Shown here piece after piece: positions 228 to 28,618 of a stretch of 45,187 nucleotides of DNA (within the stretch, counting starts at the first letter, position 1; each line of letters starts with the position of its first letter). The notes under the pieces are model-generated. The model ran no database searches. It worked only from the letters and a program-made list of their open reading frames with translations, and was not told the origin of the DNA. The translations under genes were made by a program, and so were the position numbers. Source of the stretch: Verrucomicrobium sp. BvORR034 (lineage in GTDB: Bacteria; Verrucomicrobiota; Verrucomicrobiia; Verrucomicrobiales; Verrucomicrobiaceae); assembly GCF_000739635.1 (NCBI RefSeq), contig NZ_BATQ01000170.1, positions 1 through 45,187 of the forward strand, written 5' to 3'.

Positions 228-674
228 TCAATCAAGGTATTCCGGCTTGAAGGCAACCCCCGCTTTGACCAGCATTTGCACCAGCTCTTCCCTGAACGAT
301 TTCACCCGATGATGCTCCGGCTGCTGTGCAATGTACTCTTTGACCGCCTCCCGTGAAGTGGCGCTGACAGAGAATGCTGAATACCCTTCCTGCCAGGCGA
401 AATGGTTCAGTCCGACCTCTTGGTGCACCCATATGGATGATGCCTTTTTCAACTCCCGCATAAAGTCGGAGAGACAGTGCGTGGGTTTCAGGCCGATCAA
501 CAGATGCACATGATCATTGATGCCTCCGACCCCCTGGCAAAATCCTCCGAGTCCGTGCACCGTACCACCTAAATACTCGTGCAATCGGGGAAGCCACTCC
601 GCACCGATCAGAGGCTCCCGGTTCTTGGTACTGAAGACGACATGGTAGTGCAGCGAGACATAGGTGCCGGACAT
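228..674 (-). CDS. REP-associated / IS200-like Y1 tyrosine transposase
   Basis: This is a 148-residue HUH (Y1) single-strand transposase. It has the histidine pair of the HUH motif in NDHVHLL (His55 and His57) and a candidate catalytic tyrosine, Tyr114, in VKEYIAQQPEHH, the usual arrangement in IS200/IS605 TnpA and REP-associated tyrosine transposases. Such enzymes nick and rejoin single-stranded DNA at hairpins. I chose the internal ATG giving MSGTYVSLHYHVVFSTKN, because family members begin at that point; the frame is open 18 codons further upstream. The gene looks intact. It lies between the arms of a roughly 200 bp inverted repeat and beside REP-like hairpins, which fits a self-propagating or domesticated REP-mobilising enzyme. 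Whether it is active cannot be told from sequence. Confidence 0.9.
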   Translation of the reverse strand: MSGTYVSLHYHVVFSTKNREPLIGAEWLPRLHEYLGGTVHGLGGFCQGVGGINDHVHLLIGLKPTHCLSDFMRELKKASSIWVHQEVGLNHFAWQEGYSAFSVSATSREAVKEYIAQQPEHHRVKSFREELVQMLVKAGVAFKPEYLD

Positions 675-726
675 GTTTGATGATGCGTGGAGAAAGAGGA
701 TCTTGCTGGCATCCCCTTCGGGATGC

Positions 727-807
727 AAATTTCTTTCTGCTTTCCGGAGGTATCAGTCGCTACGCTCCCTCAACCGTCCGGCTAATGGCTGCGATGCCTC
801 CGGCATC
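727..807 (+). repeat. REP-like palindromic unit, copy 1
   Basis: The unit starts with CCGGAGGTATC and ends with GATGCCTCCGG, which pair into a hairpin around a GTCGCTACGCTC...CGGCTAATGGC core. A second copy lies at 1033-1117 in the same orientation, with CCCT/CCTT and TAAT/TAAC substitutions. Short hairpin repeats next to a REP-associated transposase are the expected substrate of such enzymes; that link is inference. Confidence 0.75.
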
Positions 808-1356: not shown

Positions 1357-1992
1357 GTGATCGAATTTCTCCAATCTCTCCTCGATCAGGGCTTCGCCGT
1401 GGTGAAGCTCGGTCCGGCTGACCCGGCAACCCCCGAAGAGATGGCGGAACTGCTGGCGGAATTTGACCAGCGGCAGCGTGACAACCTCGCCCACGACGCC
1501 CCGGTGCTGGACCTTCCGGCCGCATCTTGGGCTGCTGGACTGCTCTACCAGGCGATTCACCTGCTCGCCGCGCGCGACGTCGATGCGGTCGGCATGGAGG
1601 TCGCTCTGTCTGAGCCGTGCCCCGTACCGCGCAGCGCCTCGGTGGACTACTCGGTGGACCTCCTCTTCCAACACCTGCCGGAGGTGGCCAAGTTCGCCGC
1701 CCGCATGGCCCCGGATGACCCCTTGGTGGCCCGGATCAAGAAACTGGGGGCCGCCTGGCCGCTCAGCTCCGTGGGCATGATGCTGGAATCCTGGAACGGG
1801 GTGAAACCCATCGTGAATCACCCCTGCCTTCTCGCGCTCTACACCGACCGTATCCTCCGCACCGCCGATCTGGCCCGTCTGGAGGAGTCCGCTGTCCGAC
1901 AGGCCGCGGAGGACACCGTGGGAGCATATTCTGATCTCAGTCCCAAGGTGGCCCAGCATCTGCGCTTGCCTCTGATGGACGTTCCGCTTTGA
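1357..1992 (+). CDS. Small accessory protein of the MoxR-vWA-propeller operon (bpX-like)
   Basis: This 211-residue acidic soluble protein has no signal peptide or membrane segment and no motif that I can tie to an enzyme. It begins at a GTG, with no convincing Shine-Dalgarno, and is the first gene of a same-strand series ending at 9517; the gap to the MoxR gene is only 27 bases. Known MoxR-vWA-beta-propeller ternary systems carry small partner domains named bpX beside the ATPase, and I infer that this is one of them. I cannot say which bpX family. The C-terminal half, from about residue 110, is helical with conserved-looking blocks such as GMMLESWNGVKPIVNHPCLL. A recruitment or adaptor role is a guess from context. 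Confidence 0.65.
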   Translation: MIEFLQSLLDQGFAVVKLGPADPATPEEMAELLAEFDQRQRDNLAHDAPVLDLPAASWAAGLLYQAIHLLAARDVDAVGMEVALSEPCPVPRSASVDYSVDLLFQHLPEVAKFAARMAPDDPLVARIKKLGAAWPLSSVGMMLESWNGVKPIVNHPCLLALYTDRILRTADLARLEESAVRQAAEDTVGAYSDLSPKVAQHLRLPLMDVPL

Positions 1993-2019
1993 ATTAGAAA
2001 AAACACCGCCATTATCTCC

Positions 2020-3201
2020 ATGACATCGCCTGATTCTTCAGACGCGTCGCACATCGCCGCCCGCCTCCAGACGGAGGTGTTGCAAGGCCTCCGCCAGTCT
2101 TTTGTCGCCAAAGATGAGGTCGTGGACCTGCTGGGCGTCTGTCTCGCAGCGGGGGAGAATCTTTTCATCCTGGGTCCGCCCGGCACGGCCAAGAGCGCGC
2201 TCGTGCACGCTCTGGGTCAAAGGCTGCGGGGTGATACGTTCTCGTACCTGCTCACCCGCTTCACCGAACCCAACGAGCTCTTTGGCCCCTTCGACATCCG
2301 GCGTCTCCGCGAGGGGGATCTGGTGACCAATACCGAGGGCATGCTCAGCGAGGCGTCCCTCGTGTTCATGGACGAACTGCTCAATGCCAACAGCGCCATC
2401 CTCAACAGCCTCCTCACGGTGCTGAACGAGCGCGTGCTGCATCGCGGGCGCGAGCGCCTGAAGGTGCAGGCCCTCATGTTTGTGGGCGCCAGCAACCACC
2501 TGCCGGAGGAAGACGCCCTGCGCGCCCTCTTCGACCGCTTCCTCCTGCGCGTGCGCTGCGATGCCGCCCCGGAAGACCGCCTCATGGAGGTGCTGGACGC
2601 TGGCTGGCGGCTGGAGTCCACCCCGCCGGAGATGTCCTCTCTGGGGCCGGAGCACATCCGCCTCATTCAGCAGGCCACATCACGGGTCTCCCTGAAGCCG
2701 GTGTTGAAGGACTACGTGGACCTCGTCCACCGCATCCGCCACGCGGGCATTGCTTTCTCAGACCGCCGCGCCGTGAAGGTGCAGCGCCTGGTGGCCGCCA
2801 GTGCCCTGCTCTGTGGCCGCATGGAGGCCCGGCACTCTGACCTCTGGGTGCTGCGCTACCTCTGGGACCGGGATGAACAGATGGAAGTGCTGCGCTCCCT
2901 GGTTCAGGAATCAACCAGCCGGGGTGAGGACACCTCCGATGCCACCGATCACCCGCGCGCCTCTGCCAGCGGGCAGCCGGATGCCGAAGCCCTGGCCCGC
3001 AGCCTGACCTGGCTGGAAGGCCGTCTGGACCCCGGTGCCGCTGCATCGAGCCAGGCCTACCTGCGCGACCGGCTGGCCATTCTGGAAGGCAGCGTGCAGT
3101 GGGTGCAACGGACCGATCAGCGCGAATTCCTCCAGTCCCGCATCCATCAGCTCTGGGGTGCCCTCAAAACGAAGGAACCCGAAGCGCTGGCCGGTGTCTG
3201 A
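2020..3201 (+). CDS. MoxR-family AAA+ ATPase
   Basis: This 393-residue cytoplasmic AAA+ ATPase of the MoxR branch has Walker A GPPGTAKS (52-59), the MoxR hallmark FTEPNELFGP (81-90), Walker B VFMDEL (115-120), and the sensor-1 region GASNHLPEEDALRALFDRF (156-174) with likely arginine-finger residues nearby. A C-terminal lid follows to about residue 290. Another 100 residues, predicted helical, end in QRTDQREFLQSRIHQLW and may be a partner-binding tail. MoxR ATPases are chaperone-like and usually work with a vWA protein; the 3996-6686 gene supplies one. The ATPase motor is intact. RavA is the nearest well-known relative in architecture, but the flanking propeller genes mark this as a ternary system, not RavA-ViaA. 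Confidence 0.95.
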   Translation: MTSPDSSDASHIAARLQTEVLQGLRQSFVAKDEVVDLLGVCLAAGENLFILGPPGTAKSALVHALGQRLRGDTFSYLLTRFTEPNELFGPFDIRRLREGDLVTNTEGMLSEASLVFMDELLNANSAILNSLLTVLNERVLHRGRERLKVQALMFVGASNHLPEEDALRALFDRFLLRVRCDAAPEDRLMEVLDAGWRLESTPPEMSSLGPEHIRLIQQATSRVSLKPVLKDYVDLVHRIRHAGIAFSDRRAVKVQRLVAASALLCGRMEARHSDLWVLRYLWDRDEQMEVLRSLVQESTSRGEDTSDATDHPRASASGQPDAEALARSLTWLEGRLDPGAAASSQAYLRDRLAILEGSVQWVQRTDQREFLQSRIHQLWGALKTKEPEALAGV

Positions 3202-3243
3202 TGTCTTGACCGATCGCATCTCCCATCGACAAACCCTCGCCCC

Positions 3244-3999
3244 ATGACTGCGTCGCCCCCTGCGCCTGTCGCCCCCTCTGCCACCTCCTGGGTGGCAAGA
3301 CTGGCCGTTCCCTTGGCGGCGACGCTGGATCCGCTCCGGCTGCTGCCCGGTCTGGAAGGACGGCTCACTGGCGCGTGGATCTGGGTGAAGGGCGGCCCCC
3401 TCACCGACTCCCAGCAGGCGCTCTATGCCACCGTGCCGTGGCACAACCGTTTTTCCTCCGCTGCGGAGGGCTGGCTTTTTGAGTCCGATCAGGCGCTGCC
3501 TTGGGGAAAGCTCCCAGAGGGTCCCTGGCGTCCCCTGGCCGAGCTCCTGGTACCGCTGGCTCCGCCCTCGTCCTTCCCCGGGGAGTTGCGCAACCGGGCA
3601 CTGCTGGAAATCCAGCGCAGTGACCTCGCCACTCCCGCCGCCCTGCTCATGCTGCCCGCCGCGGACTGGTACGAGTATGCGCATAGCGCCCCGGCCCTGC
3701 GGCTGGAGCGCCTCAGCTTTGTGCTCAACGAAGCCCAGGGCCAGGTCCTGGTTTGCGGTGAGCCCCTGCCCCCGCTGCCCGGTCGCCGTTATTATTTCCA
3801 CGGTCCCGCCGCCATCCCGTGTGGACATGCGCCCTTTCCCGCACTCCAGCCCTCCACCCTGGCCTCCTGGCTGCGTCTGGCCGAAGGCGAGACCGCCCTC
3901 TTCGATGAAGACGGCACGTATGCCCGCATCAGCGCGGACCTCTGGCGGCCCGCCAGCCGCAGCGCCATCCGCGCCAACTGCGCCCCCTTGAAGCGATGA
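3244..3999 (+). CDS. Second accessory protein of the ternary system (bpX-like)
   Basis: This 251-residue soluble protein has no recognisable catalytic motif. It is rich in aromatic and proline residues, with blocks such as GAWIWVKGG (43-51) and PAADWYEYAHS in mid-protein. It overlaps the vWA/propeller gene by ATGA (3996-3999), a pattern of translational coupling that argues for equimolar partners. By position between MoxR and vWA it matches the accessory bpX proteins of MoxR-vWA-beta-propeller systems; this is a family-level inference from context and general look, not a match to a profile I could run. Confidence 0.65.
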   Translation: MTASPPAPVAPSATSWVARLAVPLAATLDPLRLLPGLEGRLTGAWIWVKGGPLTDSQQALYATVPWHNRFSSAAEGWLFESDQALPWGKLPEGPWRPLAELLVPLAPPSSFPGELRNRALLEIQRSDLATPAALLMLPAADWYEYAHSAPALRLERLSFVLNEAQGQVLVCGEPLPPLPGRRYYFHGPAAIPCGHAPFPALQPSTLASWLRLAEGETALFDEDGTYARISADLWRPASRSAIRANCAPLKR

Positions 4000-6686
4000 A
4001 CACGGTGGTTTCCAAAACCGGATTCAGCGGGGAGATGGCCAACGCCGCCGCCTGGCTGACCCCTGCCATGGAGGCGGACTGGCACTGGGACCTGGACGGC
4101 AGCGCGATCCTGTGGGAGGACGACACCACCGTGGTCATGGCCGAGGAGCTGGCGATCATCTGCGAGCGTTATCACCATGAACCCCCGCCGCCCCTCTCCG
4201 CCATCGTCTCCGCGCTGGCCATGTTGAAGGGCTGCCGCGGCCCTTCCATCCCCCCAAGCCCAGAGAAGGCCGCGCCCCACTGGCCGGCAGATCTGCTGAA
4301 GACTCCTGCCGCCAAGCACGCGTTGCTGGACCTGATGTTCCACCAGTTGGAGGATCCCCTGCCCGCCTCCGGGGACACCATCGCCCAACTCATCCGGATC
4401 AACTGGCGGCCCGGTGTTGAAGACCGTCTACAACGGCAAAACACCCGCTACACGAGCCGCGAGCGCATCCGCGTGGCGATCAGCCGCGTCTCTCCTGAGC
4501 AGCTCCGGCTGCGCCTGGAAACAGGGGTGGAGGGCATGGTCCAGGCCGCGCCGGACCTCCCCAAACCGGAAGGCTACTCGCCCCAGACGCTCATGCGAGC
4601 GCTCGCGCAGGATCCAGAGACCGCTGGTCTCTCCCTGCTGACGCGGGACATCATGGCGGCACTCACTTTGCCCCAGGTCATGTCGCTCAAGGAAGAACGC
4701 GCCACCTCCGGTGTGTCGGACCTCAGCAACCGCGGCCCCATTCACCGGCTGCTCCTCTCTGAGCTGGCGCATGACGATGACATGCTGGCCGCCCGGCTGG
4801 CTCTGGGCGAGGCCCTCTATCTCCAACCGGAGCCTCCAGCTCACCGGCCCCCGGGCACTCAACTGCTGGTGATGGACAGCGGGCTGCGCCTCTGGGGTGC
4901 GGCCCGCATCTTCGCCCTCTCTGCCGCGCTCGCCCTGCGGCTCAAGGCCAAGGCTGGCACCAGTAACGAGGTCTGGCGGGCCAAAGGGGTGTACTGGGAG
5001 AAAGTGGACCTGGACTCCGTGGAAGGCGTCAAGAACCAGCTCAAGGTCCTGGAGACCTCCTACGACCTGACCGGGGCCCTGGCCAATCTGCCGGACTACT
5101 TGCCGGAGACTCCCGACCGCGCCCAGGACCTGGTCCTGGTGATTCACGATGCCACACTGCGTGACCCCGCTTTTCGCAAGGAGCTGGCCGCGCATCTGGA
5201 CGCCTGTTGCCCGCTTCACATCGTCGCCGTGGATGCCGAGGGACGTCTGACCCTGCACCAGTACTCACGCCAGGGCATCAAGCTGCTGCACCAGGCCCGC
5301 TTGAAGCTGGAGAAACTCCTGTCCCTGGACCCAGGAAACAATCGCTCCGGCACCCGGCTCCGCGCCATGCGCTCGTGGCCGGCCGTCTTCGGCCCCGCCC
5401 AGCTGCCCTTCCTCCTCGCGCCGGCATCGCCCATCGTGGCCGCCCTCACCCTGCGGCACGACAGCCGCCAGACGACCTTTGGCCTCACTCAGAGCCGGGA
5501 GATCTGGTACATGCGCAATTTCCTCACCGGTGCCCGCCCCATGCCCATCGAGCCCCTGCGCGGGAAGGTGCTGGAGTTCTGCGCGCGCCAGGAGCCGGAG
5601 AAGGATCTGGTGGCGGCCTCCTGGGACCAGGACCGCGCCCAGGTGCAGGTGGTGGTGGTCCCAGCCCCCGCCAGCGATGAGCCCCCTCTCCCCAAGTCCT
5701 GGGTGCTGGATGGCGTGGACTCCCATCCCCGCGCCTGCTGGGTGGATGGTGACTGCCTGGTGGTCCTCACCTCCCGCACCCTCCGTGCCGTGCACCTCAG
5801 CAGCGGCGCAGAACTCCCCAGCCTGGATCTGCCGCCCAATCTCCACCATCTGGGGGAACGCCATTTCTACTCCGGCAGTGCGGAGCCGTACACCGTGCAC
5901 CACTGCCTGGTGCAAGGAAACAGCATCAGCCTGCCCGCCTTTGGCACCACCAAGATCACCCGCCCGGTCCTCGCCTTCCATCGCAAGGGGCAGCTCGGCA
6001 TGTGGAGCGTGGGGGCCAATGGCGTGATCATCTCGCCTTCCGGGAACCATCACATGGAGGGACTCTCCTTCCCCCACCGCCTCTCGGCCGCCAAGGCCAG
6101 TGCCGATGGCAAGAAGGTCTGGATGCGAACCCAGCAGGGCTCCTGCTTCACCAGGGATCTGGACACGGGCCAGCTCAGCTCCAACGCCGTCGACCAGGGC
6201 CAGTGGCTCTTCTTCGTGGAGAAGACGGCCTTCGCCCAGTTCTCCATGCGCACGCGGTTTGAGGCCGTTGGCCTCACCCCGGGCGGGGAGGTCGCCCTCC
6301 GCACCTCACGCGGACGCACCGCCATCGTCACCCTGTCCAACACCTGGTTCCGTCTGGAGCACAAGGCAGACGCGGTGGTGCAGGACTGGCGCACCTTCGG
6401 TGAACCGGAGCCCACCGGACACTTCTGCACTGTCCGCATCGCCGAATGGCCGGGCGGCAGCCGCGCCTTCCTGGATGATCGCGGCATCCTCCATCTCCAG
6501 GCGTCCAATCCCGCCCTGGCGGAGGTCAGCATCGGCCTGCCCGCCAACATGATGCTGCCCGCCTGGAGCTCCGACGGCCTGCTGGTGGGACCCGCCGCCT
6601 CCATGGACAGCGGACGCCCCGTCACAGGACACGCCCAGGCCATCGAGCGCCACATCCGTCGCTTCGTCACGGAGACCCTCACATGA
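3996..6686 (+). CDS. vWA-like and beta-propeller protein of the ternary system
   Basis: This 896-residue cytoplasmic protein has three visible parts. Residues 1-280 are a helical N-terminal region. Residues about 288-445 resemble a von Willebrand A domain: a hydrophobic strand QLLVMDSG (289-296), an alternating strand-helix pattern, LTGALANLPDYLPE, and a later strand LVLVIHDATLRD with Asp385. The MIDAS is degenerate: D294-S-G-L-R298 replaces DxSxS, so metal binding is doubtful. Residues about 460-890 are repetitive strands with WD/PQQ-like turns (ASADGKKVWMRT, GLTPGGEVALRT), read as a beta-propeller. The usual ternary system has MoxR, vWA and propeller as partners; here the last two appear fused. 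Both neighbours overlap it by ATGA. The propeller call is the least certain part. Confidence 0.75.
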   Translation: MNTVVSKTGFSGEMANAAAWLTPAMEADWHWDLDGSAILWEDDTTVVMAEELAIICERYHHEPPPPLSAIVSALAMLKGCRGPSIPPSPEKAAPHWPADLLKTPAAKHALLDLMFHQLEDPLPASGDTIAQLIRINWRPGVEDRLQRQNTRYTSRERIRVAISRVSPEQLRLRLETGVEGMVQAAPDLPKPEGYSPQTLMRALAQDPETAGLSLLTRDIMAALTLPQVMSLKEERATSGVSDLSNRGPIHRLLLSELAHDDDMLAARLALGEALYLQPEPPAHRPPGTQLLVMDSGLRLWGAARIFALSAALALRLKAKAGTSNEVWRAKGVYWEKVDLDSVEGVKNQLKVLETSYDLTGALANLPDYLPETPDRAQDLVLVIHDATLRDPAFRKELAAHLDACCPLHIVAVDAEGRLTLHQYSRQGIKLLHQARLKLEKLLSLDPGNNRSGTRLRAMRSWPAVFGPAQLPFLLAPASPIVAALTLRHDSRQTTFGLTQSREIWYMRNFLTGARPMPIEPLRGKVLEFCARQEPEKDLVAASWDQDRAQVQVVVVPAPASDEPPLPKSWVLDGVDSHPRACWVDGDCLVVLTSRTLRAVHLSSGAELPSLDLPPNLHHLGERHFYSGSAEPYTVHHCLVQGNSISLPAFGTTKITRPVLAFHRKGQLGMWSVGANGVIISPSGNHHMEGLSFPHRLSAAKASADGKKVWMRTQQGSCFTRDLDTGQLSSNAVDQGQWLFFVEKTAFAQFSMRTRFEAVGLTPGGEVALRTSRGRTAIVTLSNTWFRLEHKADAVVQDWRTFGEPEPTGHFCTVRIAEWPGGSRAFLDDRGILHLQASNPALAEVSIGLPANMMLPAWSSDGLLVGPAASMDSGRPVTGHAQAIERHIRRFVTETLT

Positions 6687-9517
6687 TCCCCCGTACGCTC
6701 CACCTCGAACCCGCCCGCCATCCCGCGGGCACGCCCGCCACCGCCTGGTGTCTGCCCGGGGCGGAGGCGGAGCATTGGATCGATGAAATCACACGCTGGC
6801 AGCTCAAGGACGAGTCCGCACTCAGGCTGTACGTGCTGCCAGCCTCCATCCGGTCTCGTGAACCTGCGGGATTGTTTGTCATCCCCGCCACAGGAGAAGT
6901 CCCCCAAGTGCGGCCTGCAGCCCTGGGCTTCACCTGCATTGGACGCGCGCTCTATGTACCGGTGGATGCCCTCCTGCTGCCGGCGGTGACTCCAGCAGAG
7001 GCGGACGCCGTGAACTCCTATTCCGGTGCGCTGGTTTTTCATCCCGGCCTCGGCGCGGTCGGCTTTGATGCCGGGGAGGAGTTCGCCCTTGGAGACCTCC
7101 TGATCCCACCTCCAGAGAGAGTCGAGGAATGGACGACCCCGCTGCCCGGCGTCGCGCCCCTGCCGCGTCTGCAGTCCGTGCTGGTAAAGGCCCCGTCACT
7201 CGAGAACCTCTTCGGTGATGACTCCCTTGAGATCGGCTCGGATCCCGCACCAGAGTTTCAGAATCCACCTGCCGGGGAGACGGCGGGCAAAGCCCCAGGC
7301 AAGACGCCCTCCAAGGCAGCCAGTGCCTTTGCCATACCCTTCCTCTGGCTGGCGCAGAAAATTGTCCAAAGCCTTCCCCGCACGGGCGGTCAACGCACCT
7401 TCTGGAATGATCTGGAAGACTGGGTGAACCGCAAGCTCTCCGGTCCGGAGCGCAGTCTGGGCGAGGACCGGAACCGGGCCTTGCAACGGCTGCTGGATGA
7501 ACTGAAGAACAATCCGGATGAAGGCCTGAAACACGCCCTGCCGCTCACTGGCAGCGGCATGCATCGCGGCACCGCGCCGCCTTCCTCCAAGCTCGGGACC
7601 CGAGCGCCGAACTTTGACCTCGGCCGCCTGGGCGGCGGACGCGCCATCGATGCGTGGGATGTCTCACAGCAGCACCAGCAGGAGCTGCGCAGGCAGTACA
7701 TGGAGCTGGCCAGCCGCGAGGTCCAACTGGGCCGCCATCGCCGCGCCGCGTACATTTACGCCGAGTTGCTGGGAGACCTCAGCACCGCCGCCATCGTGCT
7801 GAAGAACGGCGGACATCATGCAGAAGCCGCCGTGATTTTCCGCGATCACCTGCACCGCCCGTTGGAAGCCGCAGAATGCTTCGCCTTGGGTGGCCAGATC
7901 GCTGAGGCGGTGAAGCTCTATGAGGAAGGGCGGCGCTGGGATAAGCTGGCCTCCCTCTATGGCGAACTGGGGGAGGAGAAGAAGATGCGCGAGGCGTATC
8001 AGACCTGGATCGCCGAGCTGGTCCGGGCGGATGATCTCCTGCAAGCGGCAAGCCTGACCCTCAATGAACTGCAAGACCGCCCCGGCGCACTGAAGCTGCT
8101 GGAAGATGCGTGGCCCACCAGCCGCCTGGCCATGAACTGCATCGAGCGCGCCCTGGAGCTCCGCGGGGCCGCTGGTGAGCACCATGAGGCCACCCGTCTG
8201 CTGGAATCTCTGCCGCATCATCACGATGCCTCCAAGATGCAGCAGATGCTGAGCGTGTACGGCAATCTCCAGCGCACGTATCCAGACCGAACCGTCAAAG
8301 CCCGCGCCGAGGACTTGGGACGTCGCGAGATTGCCCGCCTCCTGCCCACCGTGCCGGACGGCCAGCGCAGCACCCTCATGCGACTGCTCCAGTGCCTGAG
8401 CCCCGCGGATACCCTGCTGGCCCGCGATGGACGCCGTCACCTGGACGAACACCAGGCCACACGCCGCCCTTCCCTCCCGCAACGCAACCCGAAGATCGCC
8501 CCTGCGGGCAGAGTGGATCTGGTGTCCATCTTCAGCGCCAGCCTGCCCTGGAAGAAACAGGGGCTCAAGGTGGTGCAGGCAGCCGCTGTGCACGACAGCT
8601 TCTGCCTGCTGGCCTACGATGCCAGGCAGCCCCGACTTCTCGGCCTGCATGCGGGCTTCCGTGAGACCTCCACCGCCCGGCAGATCGAGTGGAACCTGTC
8701 CAGCGATGACTGGTCCGCCGCCCCCATGCCCCTGCTGGTGGCCGCGCGGAACACGAGGAAATATCTGGTCCACCTGCCCCAGTCACCCACAGTGGTGCAT
8801 CTGCACTCCCTGCCGGGCAGTGTGTCAACGGACCCCCAGGTGGAGATTGGCACCCCGGGCTGGCTCACCGATCCCATCTGGGCAGCCGCCTATGATGCCA
8901 ACGGCTACCTCTGGGCACTGCGACTCACCCGAGTGGGCTGGCGGCTCAGCCAGTTCTCCCCCCAGGGCACCATCTCCAACGACCGCCTCGTCGAAGGTCT
9001 GGACGACCTGCCCATTCCCACCGCCCCGCTGCCCATGGTGGTGACCGCCACACACGTCGTCCTTGCCGCCGTGAACCGCGTCATCCTCATGCCGCTGGGG
9101 AGCGCCCCTCAACGGGCTTTCGAGGAAATCACCTTCGACGCCCCGGTGCGCTCCCTCGTGCCCGCCCCCGCCTGGAGCAGCCCCCGCGTCGCCGTCGCCG
9201 CCGGCGCAGAGGCCCACGTCCTCTGGCTCAGCGGCGCCCAGCCCCACGCCATGCTGGTGGCGTCAGACCTCGAACCCACCGCCGTCACCTCCTTCACCAA
9301 CGACGGCGCCCTGCACGTCATCAGCGGCAGCCAGGGCACCATCGTCCTCGCCAACCACACCGGCTCCATCCAGCGCTGGCAGTTCGACCTTCCCAGACGG
9401 GTCACCGCCGTCATGCCCTGCGCCGACCTCTGGACCTTCGCCACCCTGGACGAGGAGTCCACTCTTGCTCTGTGGCGGTATGAGGGGAGGAATTTGCAGC
9501 AGAAGAGGAGTCAGTAG
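6683..9517 (+). CDS. Accessory-domain, alpha-solenoid and beta-propeller protein of the ternary system
   Basis: This is a 944-residue protein, last in the operon, coupled to the preceding gene by an ATGA overlap. Residues 1-170 form a beta-rich domain of bpX type (LRLYVLPASI, GRALYVPVDALLLP). Residues 180-215 are a low-complexity linker with lysine/alanine/proline repeats. Residues about 218-300 are helical (WLAQKIVQSL, FWNDLEDWVNRKL). Residues about 320-585 are tandem helical hairpins (AAYIYAELLGDLSTAAIVL, AAECFALGGQIAEAVKLYEE) typical of a TPR or intraflagellar-transport-like solenoid. From about residue 605 to the end, strand-turn repeats look like a second beta-propeller. With two propeller proteins and a solenoid, the operon has the parts of a large scaffolded complex driven by the MoxR ATPase. 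Confidence 0.75.
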   Translation: MIPRTLHLEPARHPAGTPATAWCLPGAEAEHWIDEITRWQLKDESALRLYVLPASIRSREPAGLFVIPATGEVPQVRPAALGFTCIGRALYVPVDALLLPAVTPAEADAVNSYSGALVFHPGLGAVGFDAGEEFALGDLLIPPPERVEEWTTPLPGVAPLPRLQSVLVKAPSLENLFGDDSLEIGSDPAPEFQNPPAGETAGKAPGKTPSKAASAFAIPFLWLAQKIVQSLPRTGGQRTFWNDLEDWVNRKLSGPERSLGEDRNRALQRLLDELKNNPDEGLKHALPLTGSGMHRGTAPPSSKLGTRAPNFDLGRLGGGRAIDAWDVSQQHQQELRRQYMELASREVQLGRHRRAAYIYAELLGDLSTAAIVLKNGGHHAEAAVIFRDHLHRPLEAAECFALGGQIAEAVKLYEEGRRWDKLASLYGELGEEKKMREAYQTWIAELVRADDLLQAASLTLNELQDRPGALKLLEDAWPTSRLAMNCIERALELRGAAGEHHEATRLLESLPHHHDASKMQQMLSVYGNLQRTYPDRTVKARAEDLGRREIARLLPTVPDGQRSTLMRLLQCLSPADTLLARDGRRHLDEHQATRRPSLPQRNPKIAPAGRVDLVSIFSASLPWKKQGLKVVQAAAVHDSFCLLAYDARQPRLLGLHAGFRETSTARQIEWNLSSDDWSAAPMPLLVAARNTRKYLVHLPQSPTVVHLHSLPGSVSTDPQVEIGTPGWLTDPIWAAAYDANGYLWALRLTRVGWRLSQFSPQGTISNDRLVEGLDDLPIPTAPLPMVVTATHVVLAAVNRVILMPLGSAPQRAFEEITFDAPVRSLVPAPAWSSPRVAVAAGAEAHVLWLSGAQPHAMLVASDLEPTAVTSFTNDGALHVISGSQGTIVLANHTGSIQRWQFDLPRRVTAVMPCADLWTFATLDEESTLALWRYEGRNLQQKRSQ

Positions 9518-9878
9518 TCGGTGAGTCAGTGGGCAGTGCGTCAGTGGTCAAGGTGTTGGGGGCTGAGTTGTACGGAGTACAGGCTTCAGCCTGCGATACT
9601 TGCAGGAGCCGGAGTTCCTCCGCCCCCAACCTCTGGCGACGAAGTCGCTATGGAGTGCATGCGGGAACCGCCGCTTTCGCGGACCCAAAACGCTTCATCG
9701 AGCCCAAACAGACTGACGTTCCCGGCAAGATGCCGGGAACACATCAATGTATTGGGGAGCGCAGGCCGCTGACCTGCCATTCCTGGCGACTCGCCGGGGA
9801 CTCAAGCTTCCCAGGCGCGACATTCCCGGACTCAAATGGGGAAACCGCCCCCATCCAACGGGCTCATTGCGGCACCTT
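9518..9878. other. Intergenic repeat cluster between convergent genes
   Basis: No gene is supported here. The stretch begins with CAGTGGGCAGTGCGTCAGTG and a GTACAGGCTTCAGCCTG repeat (9548-9593). It continues with CCCCCAACCTCTGGCGACGA (compare 17350-17369 and 22614-22633) and then a perfect hairpin (9718-9740). It lies between the ends of the ternary-system operon and the convergent channel gene, where transcription from both sides would stop. Confidence 0.7.
9718..9740 (-). repeat. REP-like hairpin (10-bp stem, 3-nt loop)
   Basis: Perfect inverted repeat GTTCCCGGCA / TGCCGGGAAC around a 3-base loop. On the minus strand it reads as stem, GCATCTTGC core, stem, then GTCAGTC, the same layout as the hairpins at 17271, 22531 and 33751. 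Confidence 0.85.
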
Positions 9879-22868: not shown

Positions 22869-24200
22869 TCAACTTCCCTTGCCCCCTCCGCTCACCGAAT
22901 CCATCCACTCCACCACACGCTCGGTGAGTTTGAACGAGCCCGTACGGTTCACGTGATCCGCATCATAAAACTCGTCGGGCGGATAGTCATGATTGCCCCC
23001 TTGATTGAAGTCGTGGAACCAGCTCAGGGGCAGGTCCTTGTCCAGCGCCTCCAGCCGTTTCACCATCTGCGCCATGGCCTCGTGCGTGCTCCAGTCCGGA
23101 TCTGCGGCCGGTGCGTCCTTCACCCAGGGGTGCATGGGGGTCACCAGCAGGAGGACCTTCACGCCTTTCGCATTGAGCGCCTTCACTGTTTCCACGAACT
23201 CCGTCCAGCGCTCTTCGCTCCATTCGAAGTTCGCGGTCTTGAACGTCTCATTGATATAGGTCCGCAGCTTTTCGGGCTCCGTCGCATCCGGCATGCCGCC
23301 GCGCTTGCGACCTTCCCAACCCCAGTCGTCAAAGTTGTTCACCTCCAGCTGGCGCACTTCATCCACGGTCACGGGTGTGGTCGCCGCCGGCACCGGCCAG
23401 AGCTTGGCCTTGTTCTCCTGATCATAGTGCCAGCCCGGACTGGCCAGAAACTCCGAAAGCTTCCGCGGATCCTCCCGCTTCGCATTGAAGCTGCGCGGGC
23501 TCACGCCCCACACCACCCACTCCAGCTTGGGTAGCGGCAGCACATACTCCCGCACTACCAGGCACTGCATGGCGTTGTTTGCCCCGGCCGGGGCCAGATT
23601 CAGCGCCACGGGCGTGCCCTGATTGATCTGCCGGTAGAACATGCGCGTGGAAATGCCCTTGGTCACCAGCGAGTTCCCCATGGCCACGACCCGCAACTGG
23701 GGACGCAGCTTCCAGTAAAGCCGCATCTGCTCTGAGAAGAAGCCGCCGTAGTCCTCCCGCAACACCAGGGGGGCCTCCTTGCCCTTCGGCAGCGGTGTCA
23801 TGTCCAGGTACTTGGGCAGGTCCTCGGTCACGTCGAGGTCATCACTCTGGCTGACGTCTTCCAGCTCTTGTTTTTCCGCGAACGGCCGGAGGTTCAGCGT
23901 CACTTCCTCCTCCAGCTTCTCATTCACCGGCACCTCCTTGGCCGCCGCCACACACCAGTGGGCCACCCGGATCTTTGGCTCGTCACACACGCCGTACATC
24001 ACCTTTTTCACCGCGTACTCGTGCCACACGAGGGCATCATCATACGGCAGGATGTCGGCAGGCAGCTTCTTCTTGGAGATGGCCACCCTCGTGGCGACCA
24101 CCTGAAGATCTGCCCCCGGCACCCTCTCCACGCTCTTTTTCTCGCGACAACCCACCAGCAGGGCCAGGAGCCAGAGGGAACAGAGCAAGCGGGGAGTCAT
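22869..24200 (-). CDS. SGNH-hydrolase-like lipoprotein, paralogue A
   Basis: This 443-residue predicted lipoprotein starts MTPRLLCSLWLLALLVGC with the lipobox cysteine at 18. Residues 45-125 form a small domain with YDDALVWHEYAVKKV. An SGNH-like fold follows: block I MGNSLVTKG (Ser177), a downstream LNLAPAGANN, VKVLLLVTPMHP, and the closing block DADH (Asp413, His416). Such proteins act on acyl or acetyl esters, and AlgX/DltD-like members help acetylate exported polymers; the substrate is unknown here. It is a tandem paralogue of the 24332-25636 gene, alignable end to end with the same motifs. The two are co-oriented with a 131-base gap. The upstream ATG options were rejected because only this start gives a clean lipoprotein leader. 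Confidence 0.8.
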   Translation of the reverse strand: MTPRLLCSLWLLALLVGCREKKSVERVPGADLQVVATRVAISKKKLPADILPYDDALVWHEYAVKKVMYGVCDEPKIRVAHWCVAAAKEVPVNEKLEEEVTLNLRPFAEKQELEDVSQSDDLDVTEDLPKYLDMTPLPKGKEAPLVLREDYGGFFSEQMRLYWKLRPQLRVVAMGNSLVTKGISTRMFYRQINQGTPVALNLAPAGANNAMQCLVVREYVLPLPKLEWVVWGVSPRSFNAKREDPRKLSEFLASPGWHYDQENKAKLWPVPAATTPVTVDEVRQLEVNNFDDWGWEGRKRGGMPDATEPEKLRTYINETFKTANFEWSEERWTEFVETVKALNAKGVKVLLLVTPMHPWVKDAPAADPDWSTHEAMAQMVKRLEALDKDLPLSWFHDFNQGGNHDYPPDEFYDADHVNRTGSFKLTERVVEWMDSVSGGGKGS

Positions 24201-24331
24201 TGAAGGGCAATCTGAAACAAATCCCATCGCATTCAAGCCCGGTCAAACCGGCCTGATGCCCTGCGGAATCAATTCGAATCCAAACTGATCCAATCGATTC
24301 ACCCCCCATCGAAACGACGCCACCCCCTTTT

Positions 24332-25636
24332 TCACTTGCCCTCGCAGGTCGCCATCCAGGCAACGATCCGCTGGGTCAGCTTGACCGAGCCTGCCCGGTT
24401 CATGTGGTCGGCGTCATAAAACTCTTCGGGAGTGAAGTCATGGTGGCCCGCCAGGTTGTAGTCCCGGTACCAGCTCCCAGAGAGCTCCTGGTCCAGGCCC
24501 TCCAGCCGCTTCACGAGCTGTGCCATGCCTTCGTGGCTCGTCCAGTCCGGGTCGGCAGCCTCGGTTTCCTTCACCACCGGGTGCATGGGCGTGGTCACCA
24601 GCAGCACCTTCACCCCTTTGGCATTCAGGGCCCGCACGGTTTCCACGAACTCCTGCCAGCGGTCTTCCCCCCAGGAAAAGTCGGGCTCCTTGAACTCCTT
24701 CTTGATGAAAGCGCGGCGTGTCTCCGCATTGCTGGTGCTGGGCAGGGCGATTTGATCGCGCCCCTCCCATCCCCAGGCGTCAAACTTGGCCACCTTGAGC
24801 GAGGCAAGCTCCTCCACCGTCACGGGCGCGGTCGCGGGGGCTGGCCAGAGTTTGGTTTCATTCTCCTGATCATAGTTCCATCCCGGACTGGCCAGGAAGA
24901 CCTCCAGCTTCATGGTGTCCTCCCGCTCCGCATTGAAGGCCCGGGGACTCACTCCCCAGACCACCCACTCCAGCTTGGGCAGCGGCAGCACATACTCCCG
25001 CACGATCAGGCACTGCAGCGTGTTGTTGGCACCGGCCGGGGCCAGGTTCAGAGCCACCGGAGTACGCTCATTCTCGGCCGGGAAAAACAGGCGGGGGTTG
25101 ATCCCCTTGGTCACCAGGGAGTTCCCCATCGCCACGAGCCGGAGCTGGCTGCGCAGCTTCCAGTACAAGGTCATCTGCTCAGAAAACAGGCCGCTGTAGT
25201 CCAGCCGCAGGGATTTGGGAGTCTTGTCCACGCGCAGGGTCTGCCCCAGATCGATAAAGCGCGGCACCTCCTCATCAAAGGCGAGGTCATCGCTCTGCGC
25301 CACCTCTTGCAGGGCCGAGTTGGCCTCGAAAGGCCGCAGACTCAGGGCCAGTTCGTTGCCCACCTCTTCGTCCACCGGCACCTCTTTGGCCCCGGCCACA
25401 CTCCAGTGAGCCACGCGGATTTTCTCGGCCTTGCAGTCCCCAAACCAGACCTTCTTCACCTGGTATTCATGCCAGACCAGCGCGTCATCATAGGGCACCA
25501 CATCCATGGGTTTCTTGGCCTTGGAAACCGCCGTGCGCTCTGCCAGCACTTGCAGTTCAGCCCCAGGAACACGCTCCTCCCGACAGCCTTGGACAGCTAA
25601 AAGCACCAGCACAAGGCCCAAACGGGTGGCAATCAT
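24332..25636 (-). CDS. SGNH-hydrolase-like lipoprotein, paralogue B
   Basis: This is a 434-residue lipoprotein with leader MIATRLGLVLVLLAVQGC. It shares with its downstream neighbour the RVPGA start of the mature protein, YDDALVWHEY.VKKV, MGNSLVTKGI, LNLAPAGANN, REYVLPLPKLEWVVWGVSPR, KVLLVTTPMHP and DADHMNR. Most differences are conservative, so the pair arose by tandem duplication with both copies kept functional-looking. The candidate catalytic Ser, Asp and His are present in both. The gene is divergent from folA, with 86 bases between the start codons. Role in envelope polymer modification is inference from the fold. Confidence 0.8.
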   Translation of the reverse strand: MIATRLGLVLVLLAVQGCREERVPGAELQVLAERTAVSKAKKPMDVVPYDDALVWHEYQVKKVWFGDCKAEKIRVAHWSVAGAKEVPVDEEVGNELALSLRPFEANSALQEVAQSDDLAFDEEVPRFIDLGQTLRVDKTPKSLRLDYSGLFSEQMTLYWKLRSQLRLVAMGNSLVTKGINPRLFFPAENERTPVALNLAPAGANNTLQCLIVREYVLPLPKLEWVVWGVSPRAFNAEREDTMKLEVFLASPGWNYDQENETKLWPAPATAPVTVEELASLKVAKFDAWGWEGRDQIALPSTSNAETRRAFIKKEFKEPDFSWGEDRWQEFVETVRALNAKGVKVLLVTTPMHPVVKETEAADPDWTSHEGMAQLVKRLEGLDQELSGSWYRDYNLAGHHDFTPEEFYDADHMNRAGSVKLTQRIVAWMATCEGK

Positions 25637-28452: not shown

Positions 28453-28618
28453 ATGGGGGAAGGGATAAGCAAGCTCACCAAGAGCCACCCCTGGCCCCCG
28501 CAAGCTGAACCCCTGCCCTCCAGACCACTCCGCCCCCAACACCTTGACGCACTGCCCACTGACGCACTGACACACTGGATTCTCTTGCTCCGCGCCAGAA
28601 ACGAAAGATAATTGCGCC

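Follow-up and report, generated by a model that had tools for sequence, protein, structure and literature searches.

The window, a stretch of 45,187 nucleotides (nt) at the start of contig 31 in the 8.58 Mb genome of Verrucomicrobium sp. BvORR034, carries at positions 1357-9517 a five-gene MoxR-vWA-beta-propeller ternary system (vWA, von Willebrand factor A), a member of a class already described by Kaur et al. 2020 (PMC7159879). Five open reading frames (ORFs) follow one another on the plus strand in the order bpX4, bpMoxR, bpX2, vWA-propeller-bpX1 and bpX3-solenoid-propeller (genes 1 to 5, Table 1). Genes 1 and 2 are separated by 27 nt and genes 2 and 3 by 42 nt, while ATGA overlaps at the 3/4 and 4/5 junctions join the last three genes. 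Every one of the five proteins scores above the curated Pfam cut-off, and all fall in families named "MoxR-vWA-beta-propeller ternary system". NCBIfam returned ATPase matches only, all below cut-off and with RavA as the best, and PADLOC at E up to 1 gave nothing for the window proteins beyond a 12-bit ATPase match. A CobW_C match (E 0.11 and 0.015) was also below cut-off and was discarded. Within the home genome, bpMoxR has a single strong match (303 bits), the runner-up reaching 69 bits.

Table 1. Genes and predicted domains of the ternary system, in window coordinates.
Feature	Position	Strand	Basis
Gene 1, bpX4 protein, 211 amino acids (aa), GTG start	1357..1992	+	Pfam PF19920, 167 bits; homologue upstream of MoxR
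Gene 2, bpMoxR AAA+ ATPase, 393 aa, TAKS-type P-loop	2020..3201	+	Pfam PF20030, 301 bits
Gene 3, bpX2 protein, 251 aa	3244..3999	+	Pfam PF19918, 167 bits
Gene 4, vWA-propeller-bpX1 protein, 896 aa	3996..6686	+	Pfam bpX1, 40 bits at residues 815-891; AlphaFold model
Putative finger, gene 4 residues 229-284, just before first vWA strand	4680..4847	+	Entropy, hhalign, pLDDT
Degenerate vWA-like alpha/beta domain, gene 4 residues 286-436	4851..5303	+	Model and alignment
Beta-propeller, gene 4 residues ~478-870, overlapping the bpX1 Pfam domain (815-891)	5427..6605	+	Model, fold search, Pfam
Gene 5, bpX3-solenoid-propeller protein, 944 aa	6683..9517	+	Pfam bpX3, 118 bits at residues 6-178; AlphaFold model
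bpX3 N-terminal domain of gene 5	6698..7216	+	Pfam, model
Helical solenoid, gene 5 residues 329-593	7667..8461	+	Model; family profile
C-terminal beta-propeller, gene 5 residues 608-935	8504..9487	+	Model, fold search

The ATPase retains its Walker A (GPPGTAKS), F-x-D-E, ASN, FDRF and SDRR motifs, whose roles we assign from general knowledge, and each is invariant in 9/9 aligned sequences. Between the Walker motifs, 31 of the 37 positions of segment 76-112 are also invariant in these nine sequences, as would be expected of a fixed docking surface. Among solved structures, RavA alone matched the ATPase at E up to 0.001 (PDB 3nbx, E 2.2e-35). For bpX4, a single-sequence query found no solved relative at E up to 1. 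A possible domain relationship between bpX2 and the N-terminal part of bpX3 (hhalign probability 39.7, E 3e-4, one of 45 pairs) was suggestive and was not used, and a match of the bpX2 profile to large-toxin repeats in the PDB (E 4.4e-4, 41 residues) was rejected as short repeat similarity.

The two large proteins were analysed with AlphaFold models and with alignments of 62 rows for gene 4 and 52 rows for gene 5, the window included in both. The mean predicted local distance difference test score (pLDDT) is 82.8 and 82.6 respectively, and the predicted template modelling score is 0.54 and 0.45, so the arrangement of the domains is uncertain in both models. The gene 4 model comprises a helical N-terminal part, a poorly ordered region at about residues 231-280, an alpha/beta core, a propeller and a C-terminal helix. 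The core has a vWA-like order of strands and helices in the model, and the propeller lies C-terminal to it; the fold-search matches of gene 4 all fell on the propeller. The protein of the window is not matched by any vWA model of Pfam; in the alignment, 9 of the 62 rows give weak ivWA matches, the best at E 0.0045. The first aspartate of the metal ion-dependent adhesion site (MIDAS), D294, is kept in 61/62 rows. The serines of the DxSxS motif are mostly replaced, by glycine in 47/62 and arginine in 51/62 rows (Gly296 and Arg298 in the window), so that the complete MIDAS (DxSxS-T-D) is not present. A second aspartate, at position 386, occurs in 32/62 rows and is absent from the window protein, and Trp300-Gly301 is invariant (62/62). 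The propeller matches DDB1 (Z 13.9, 254 aligned residues, 3.9 A), mostly over residues 477-751, the part beyond residue 751 being barely covered by the fold search; Foldseek TM-scores were low. A profile match to an aminotransferase (E 9.5e-4) was taken as chance.

The gene 5 model shows a small alpha/beta N-terminal domain, a disordered linker (residues 140-255), a helical solenoid and a propeller that matches WD40 propellers (Z 22.7, 294 aligned residues, 3.7 A). The family profile additionally matches the solenoid of IFT144/WDR19 (E 5e-9). Across relatives, the propellers are the most variable large domains by alignment entropy. Taken together, the ORFs, Pfam assignments, alignments and models bear out a preliminary description of this DNA, which had proposed a five-gene operon on one strand with ATGA overlaps in its last three genes, intact MoxR motifs, a degenerate vWA-like domain, two propellers and a solenoid.

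Conservation of the five-gene cassette

Related loci were obtained by scanning genome contigs with the MoxR alignment and keeping the best 80 of at least 539 relatives; since they were picked by MoxR closeness, the cassette figures describe the nearest relatives and not the whole class. By record title the loci belong to Planctomycetota (36), Verrucomicrobiota (28), Bacteroidota (11), Wallbacteria (2) and Krumholzibacteriota (1), with 2 unplaced. All five genes are present in 52 of the 80 loci, across four named phyla and with no exception in order or strand. In 17 of the 28 loci without the full set, short contigs or flanks account for the gap; the other 11 are considered below. Where the flank suffices, bpX2 is found in 71/74 loci, bpX4 in 64/74, the vWA protein in 60/64 and bpX3 in 49/54.

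Spacing between neighbours is mostly from -30 to +60 nt, for example in 78 of 84 MoxR-bpX2 pairs, a count that also takes in the window, seven extra loci and duplicates. In one locus (L033), bpX2 and the vWA reading frame are about 1.3 kb apart, and another (L038) is split. A Hymenobacter plasmid, typed as non-mobilizable, carries all five genes in order, each confirmed by profile. The recurrence of the same cassette in other phyla makes it more than a chance association, and the five-gene set is a near-fixed cassette. We saw no conserved sixth gene, the largest flank cluster comprising 8 loci.

A putative finger and a proposed remodelling model

The most conserved 30 residues of gene 4 (block 241-270, entropy 0.93 bits against 1.52-3.18 in the other blocks) lie within the stretch that directly precedes the vWA-like core. 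AlphaFold models this stretch with low confidence over much of its length (pLDDT 42 in block 231-250). Proteins of the ivWA type, assigned to FtsH ternary systems by Pfam label, were sought in the genomes that carry 40 of the 80 loci and turned up in 4. When the gene 4 profile was aligned with these four proteins by hhalign, residues 229-284 alone aligned (probability 95.7, E 9e-9), while four other cassette profiles reached at most 0.2.

In NorD, as described in the available text of two studies, a finger (residues 403-448) precedes the MIDAS residues T534/D562, enters the ATPase ring and is needed for remodelling (PMC13036017, PMC9976466). Compared with these published descriptions, gene 4 residues 229-284 form a conserved stretch at the same position relative to the vWA core. 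By analogy, we infer that they enter the ATPase pore as the NorD finger does.

These observations lead us to a model, which we consider probable, in which the locus encodes an ATP-driven scaffold similar to NorQD that remodels a client complex by assembling, opening or releasing it. Mechanistically, the MoxR ATPase would form a hexameric ring, and the finger just upstream of the vWA core would enter its pore as the NorD finger does in NorQ. Cycles of ATP would then turn or pull the vWA-propeller protein, which in turn would engage the solenoid-propeller protein of gene 5, with bpX2 and bpX4 as likely near-constant partners in the machine. Given the degenerate MIDAS, the vWA domain may bind clients independently of metal, or client binding may have passed to the propellers, which vary most among the large domains. 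The preliminary description had also read the architecture as a large ATP-driven scaffold, and this gains support from Pfam, the models and the conservation of the cassette: propeller folds are present, a vWA-like core is present in the model, and most homologous loci retain the accompanying genes.

A bolder version extends to the whole class, and we put it forward only tentatively. Beta-propeller ternary systems might be near-fixed, five-part finger-in-pore motors and not effector-deploying conflict systems. The MoxR ring would twist the degenerate vWA by way of a finger that lies before the core and is common to these and the FtsH ternary systems. The force would act on the solenoid-propeller scaffold, an ATP-powered bacterial adaptor of a new kind.

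Several findings weigh against the remodelling model. The likeness to NorD is one of position only; a PDB search with the profile at E up to 10 did not retrieve any NorD chain. NorD makes a second contact, with its C-terminal end on the post-sensor-1 loop; this one must differ here, because the vWA domain is internal. Eleven of the 80 loci are without one or more partners despite available flank. Six loci lack bpX4 in this way, one of them losing bpX3 too, at a contig end; L059 has neither bpX4 nor bpX3, and L032, L056, L068 and L098 are without most partners. A sensitive re-check of the loci counted as missing a partner gave nothing convincing (best E 0.2). The bpMoxR relatives of the last four loci may be decayed or using other partners. 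The vWA proteins of L036, L063 and L102 are 460-469 aa long and stop before the propeller, in L036 and L102 with a full-length bpX3 following, and the bpX3 proteins of L097 and L101 stop before theirs. Neither propeller is therefore strictly kept, whereas the class is described as strictly carrying one in the account available to us (PMC7159879).

Selection, distribution and alternative explanations

The first alternative is the one given by Kaur et al. 2020: a conflict (anti-phage) system in which the MoxR-vWA pair would set a threshold and the N-terminal part of gene 5 would be an effector near the membrane. In the available text, the argument from comparative genomics is that the N-terminal region of the third protein is variable and spans the membrane and that the systems tend to occur in multicellular hosts; conventional effectors are noted as lacking in the class (PMC7159879). 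Among the open-licence literature matches listed we saw no experiment on these genes; the conflict role of the class thus rests on comparative genomics, and the searches agree with the preliminary description that no role is established. We regard this explanation as possible but doubtful, for the reasons that follow.

Comparison of the window with two other Verrucomicrobium genomes (G001 and G012), at gene and domain level, gave whole-gene ratios of nonsynonymous to synonymous substitution rates (dN/dS) of 0.026-0.146, the highest domain value being 0.236 (gene 5 propeller against G012). All five genes are under purifying selection, with no sign of diversifying selection at the gene or domain level, the only levels examined. 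In favour of an N-terminal effector, this domain of gene 5 changes faster than the propeller in the G001 comparison (dN 0.050 vs 0.022; dN/dS 0.139 vs 0.115). The G012 comparison gives the opposite order (dN/dS 0.097 vs 0.236), and across relatives the N-terminal domain has lower entropy than the propeller. Hydropathy predicts no membrane segment in the N-terminal part of the window protein; a hydrophobic stretch in the N-terminal 330 residues appears in 19/52 rows at a loose cut and in about 8/52 at a stricter one, the latter being a point for the conflict explanation. None of the five proteins has a known effector domain in Pfam, NCBIfam or PADLOC.

The distribution of the system is in better agreement with a conflict role. 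With the own genome counted, bpX2 is present in 8/59 genomes of the family and 2/288 of the phylum, and bpX3 in 3/4 of the genus and 4/335 of the class, so the set is rare and patchy. Within the family, as is usual for accessory genes, carriers have larger genomes: the median is 7.95 Mb in the 8 carriers and 6.0 Mb in the 51 other genomes (one-sided p 2.6e-4, without control for phylogeny). The MoxR lineage of the window and that of other family members form separate clades; two such clades in one family mean that descent within it is not simple. A presence this rare and patchy favours an accessory trait.

Searches of mobile elements point the other way. We found bpX2 in 0/72,556 plasmids and 0/50,697 phages, and bpX3 in one of the 72,556 plasmids; the plasmid search with bpX2 is not very sensitive, as it missed the Hymenobacter copy, which itself speaks for a conflict role. 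In viral contigs, 0/55 pattern matches were confirmed. At 1e-10, 17 PADLOC families matched among 141 ORFs from the flanks (66 loci, 211 ORFs eligible), against 43 among 144 control ORFs (drawn from 252, on 20 stretches in 5 genomes). Families and not proteins were counted, and several families can match one protein; this coarse comparison shows no visible excess. Taken globally, selection, mobility, flanks and effectors lean against a classic conflict system.

A second alternative, which we find rather unlikely, is a chaperone that matures one particular enzyme or envelope complex, in the manner of NorQD, RavA-ViaA or CbbQO. The MoxR-vWA pairs of known role are of this kind in the published descriptions consulted (PMC7159879, PMC13036017, PMC9976466). 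RavA is the only solved ATPase relative found, and the MoxR tree follows the phyla (5 label changes, minimum 4, shuffled mean 34.4), both consistent with such a role. However, there is no stable linkage to a client gene: the families shared between flanks are scattered, and Pfam families there (DUF1501, 3-keto-disaccharide hydrolase) reach at most 4/141 ORFs. The patchy presence is a further point against a chaperone. We know of no MoxR-vWA chaperone with two propellers and a solenoid.

A third alternative, a scaffold for membrane coats or trafficking with kinship to the propeller-solenoid coat proteins reported from Planctomycetes and Verrucomicrobia, would fit the solenoid and propeller of gene 5 and the IFT144/WDR19 match of its family profile, but TPR-like (tetratricopeptide repeat) solenoids resemble one another widely. 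Although coat-like proteins are reported in V. spinosum (PMC2799638, available text), a coat needs the propeller before the solenoid; since the solenoid comes first in gene 5 we rejected membership, and with the system also found in Chitinophaga and Niastella, outside that superphylum, this explanation is very improbable.

The surroundings of the operon are partly kept between genomes. An IS200-like (Y1) transposase gene lies directly upstream in the window (228-728, minus strand) and in both relatives (L017 12715-13215 and L018 10462-10962, 97.6% identity to each). Downstream, the channel and RecJ-like genes are kept in G001, and the channel gene was not found within 1.6 kb in G012. Inverted repeats (13-86/925-998 and 118-172/836-890) surround the transposase gene in the window, and together they resemble what we take to be a RAYT-type (REP-associated tyrosine transposase) element. 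About 8.7 heptamers (TGCCCAC) form an array at 1218-1279, ending 77 nt before the operon start, and could affect its expression; G001 has another short repeat at this site and G012 no such heptamer run. A dispersed repeat of about 50 nt (13-66, 945-998, 1174-1227, 9547-9595 and 28501-28554) stands upstream of the operon in both orientations, with one copy just downstream of it. Elsewhere, the window holds a tandem duplication (22901-25423, spacing about 1.45 kb, copies 71-79% identical), and the home genome also encodes a VMAP-C protein, which marks a different ternary system (contig 166, 27886-28617, L105).

Comparison with known systems

The class itself is already known; what is new here is the near-fixed cassette and the putative finger stretch shared with the vWA proteins of FtsH ternary systems. 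With a near-fixed five-gene unit and a named stretch, the class becomes a testable machine, and for V. spinosum, of the same genus, a saturated transposon library and targeted deletion are reported in the available text of PMC12283558.

The window system shares with the published ternary class all named components, the TAKS P-loop, a divergent vWA with a propeller, and a third protein with a TPR-like solenoid and a propeller. It differs in the N-terminal part of gene 5, for which no membrane segment is predicted and which is under purifying selection; a variable region with a membrane span is typical of the class and not strict. Moreover, the 80 nearest loci have bpX2 and bpX4 as near-constant members; presumably these are the extra genes that, in the available text of Kaur et al., belong to a subset.

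With the FtsH ternary systems (ivWA), gene 4 has in common a GGxSxxxxRGxxxxLLxSxLA...ELLYxxR-like stretch before the vWA core. In contrast, the five genes of the window include no FtsH, and the vWA core of the four ivWA proteins is left unaligned by profile. NorQ-NorD likewise pairs a MoxR ATPase with a vWA partner that has a conserved finger-like stretch immediately ahead of its core, whereas here the vWA is internal and followed by a propeller, the MIDAS serines are lost and extra bpX proteins are present. RavA-ViaA has a homologous ATPase, but differs in partner architecture and gene set. Finally, the membrane-coat-like proteins of the Planctomycetes-Verrucomicrobia-Chlamydiae (PVC) superphylum share a propeller and a helical solenoid, as described in the available text of PMC2799638, while in the window the two domains stand in the opposite order, within an ATPase-linked operon.

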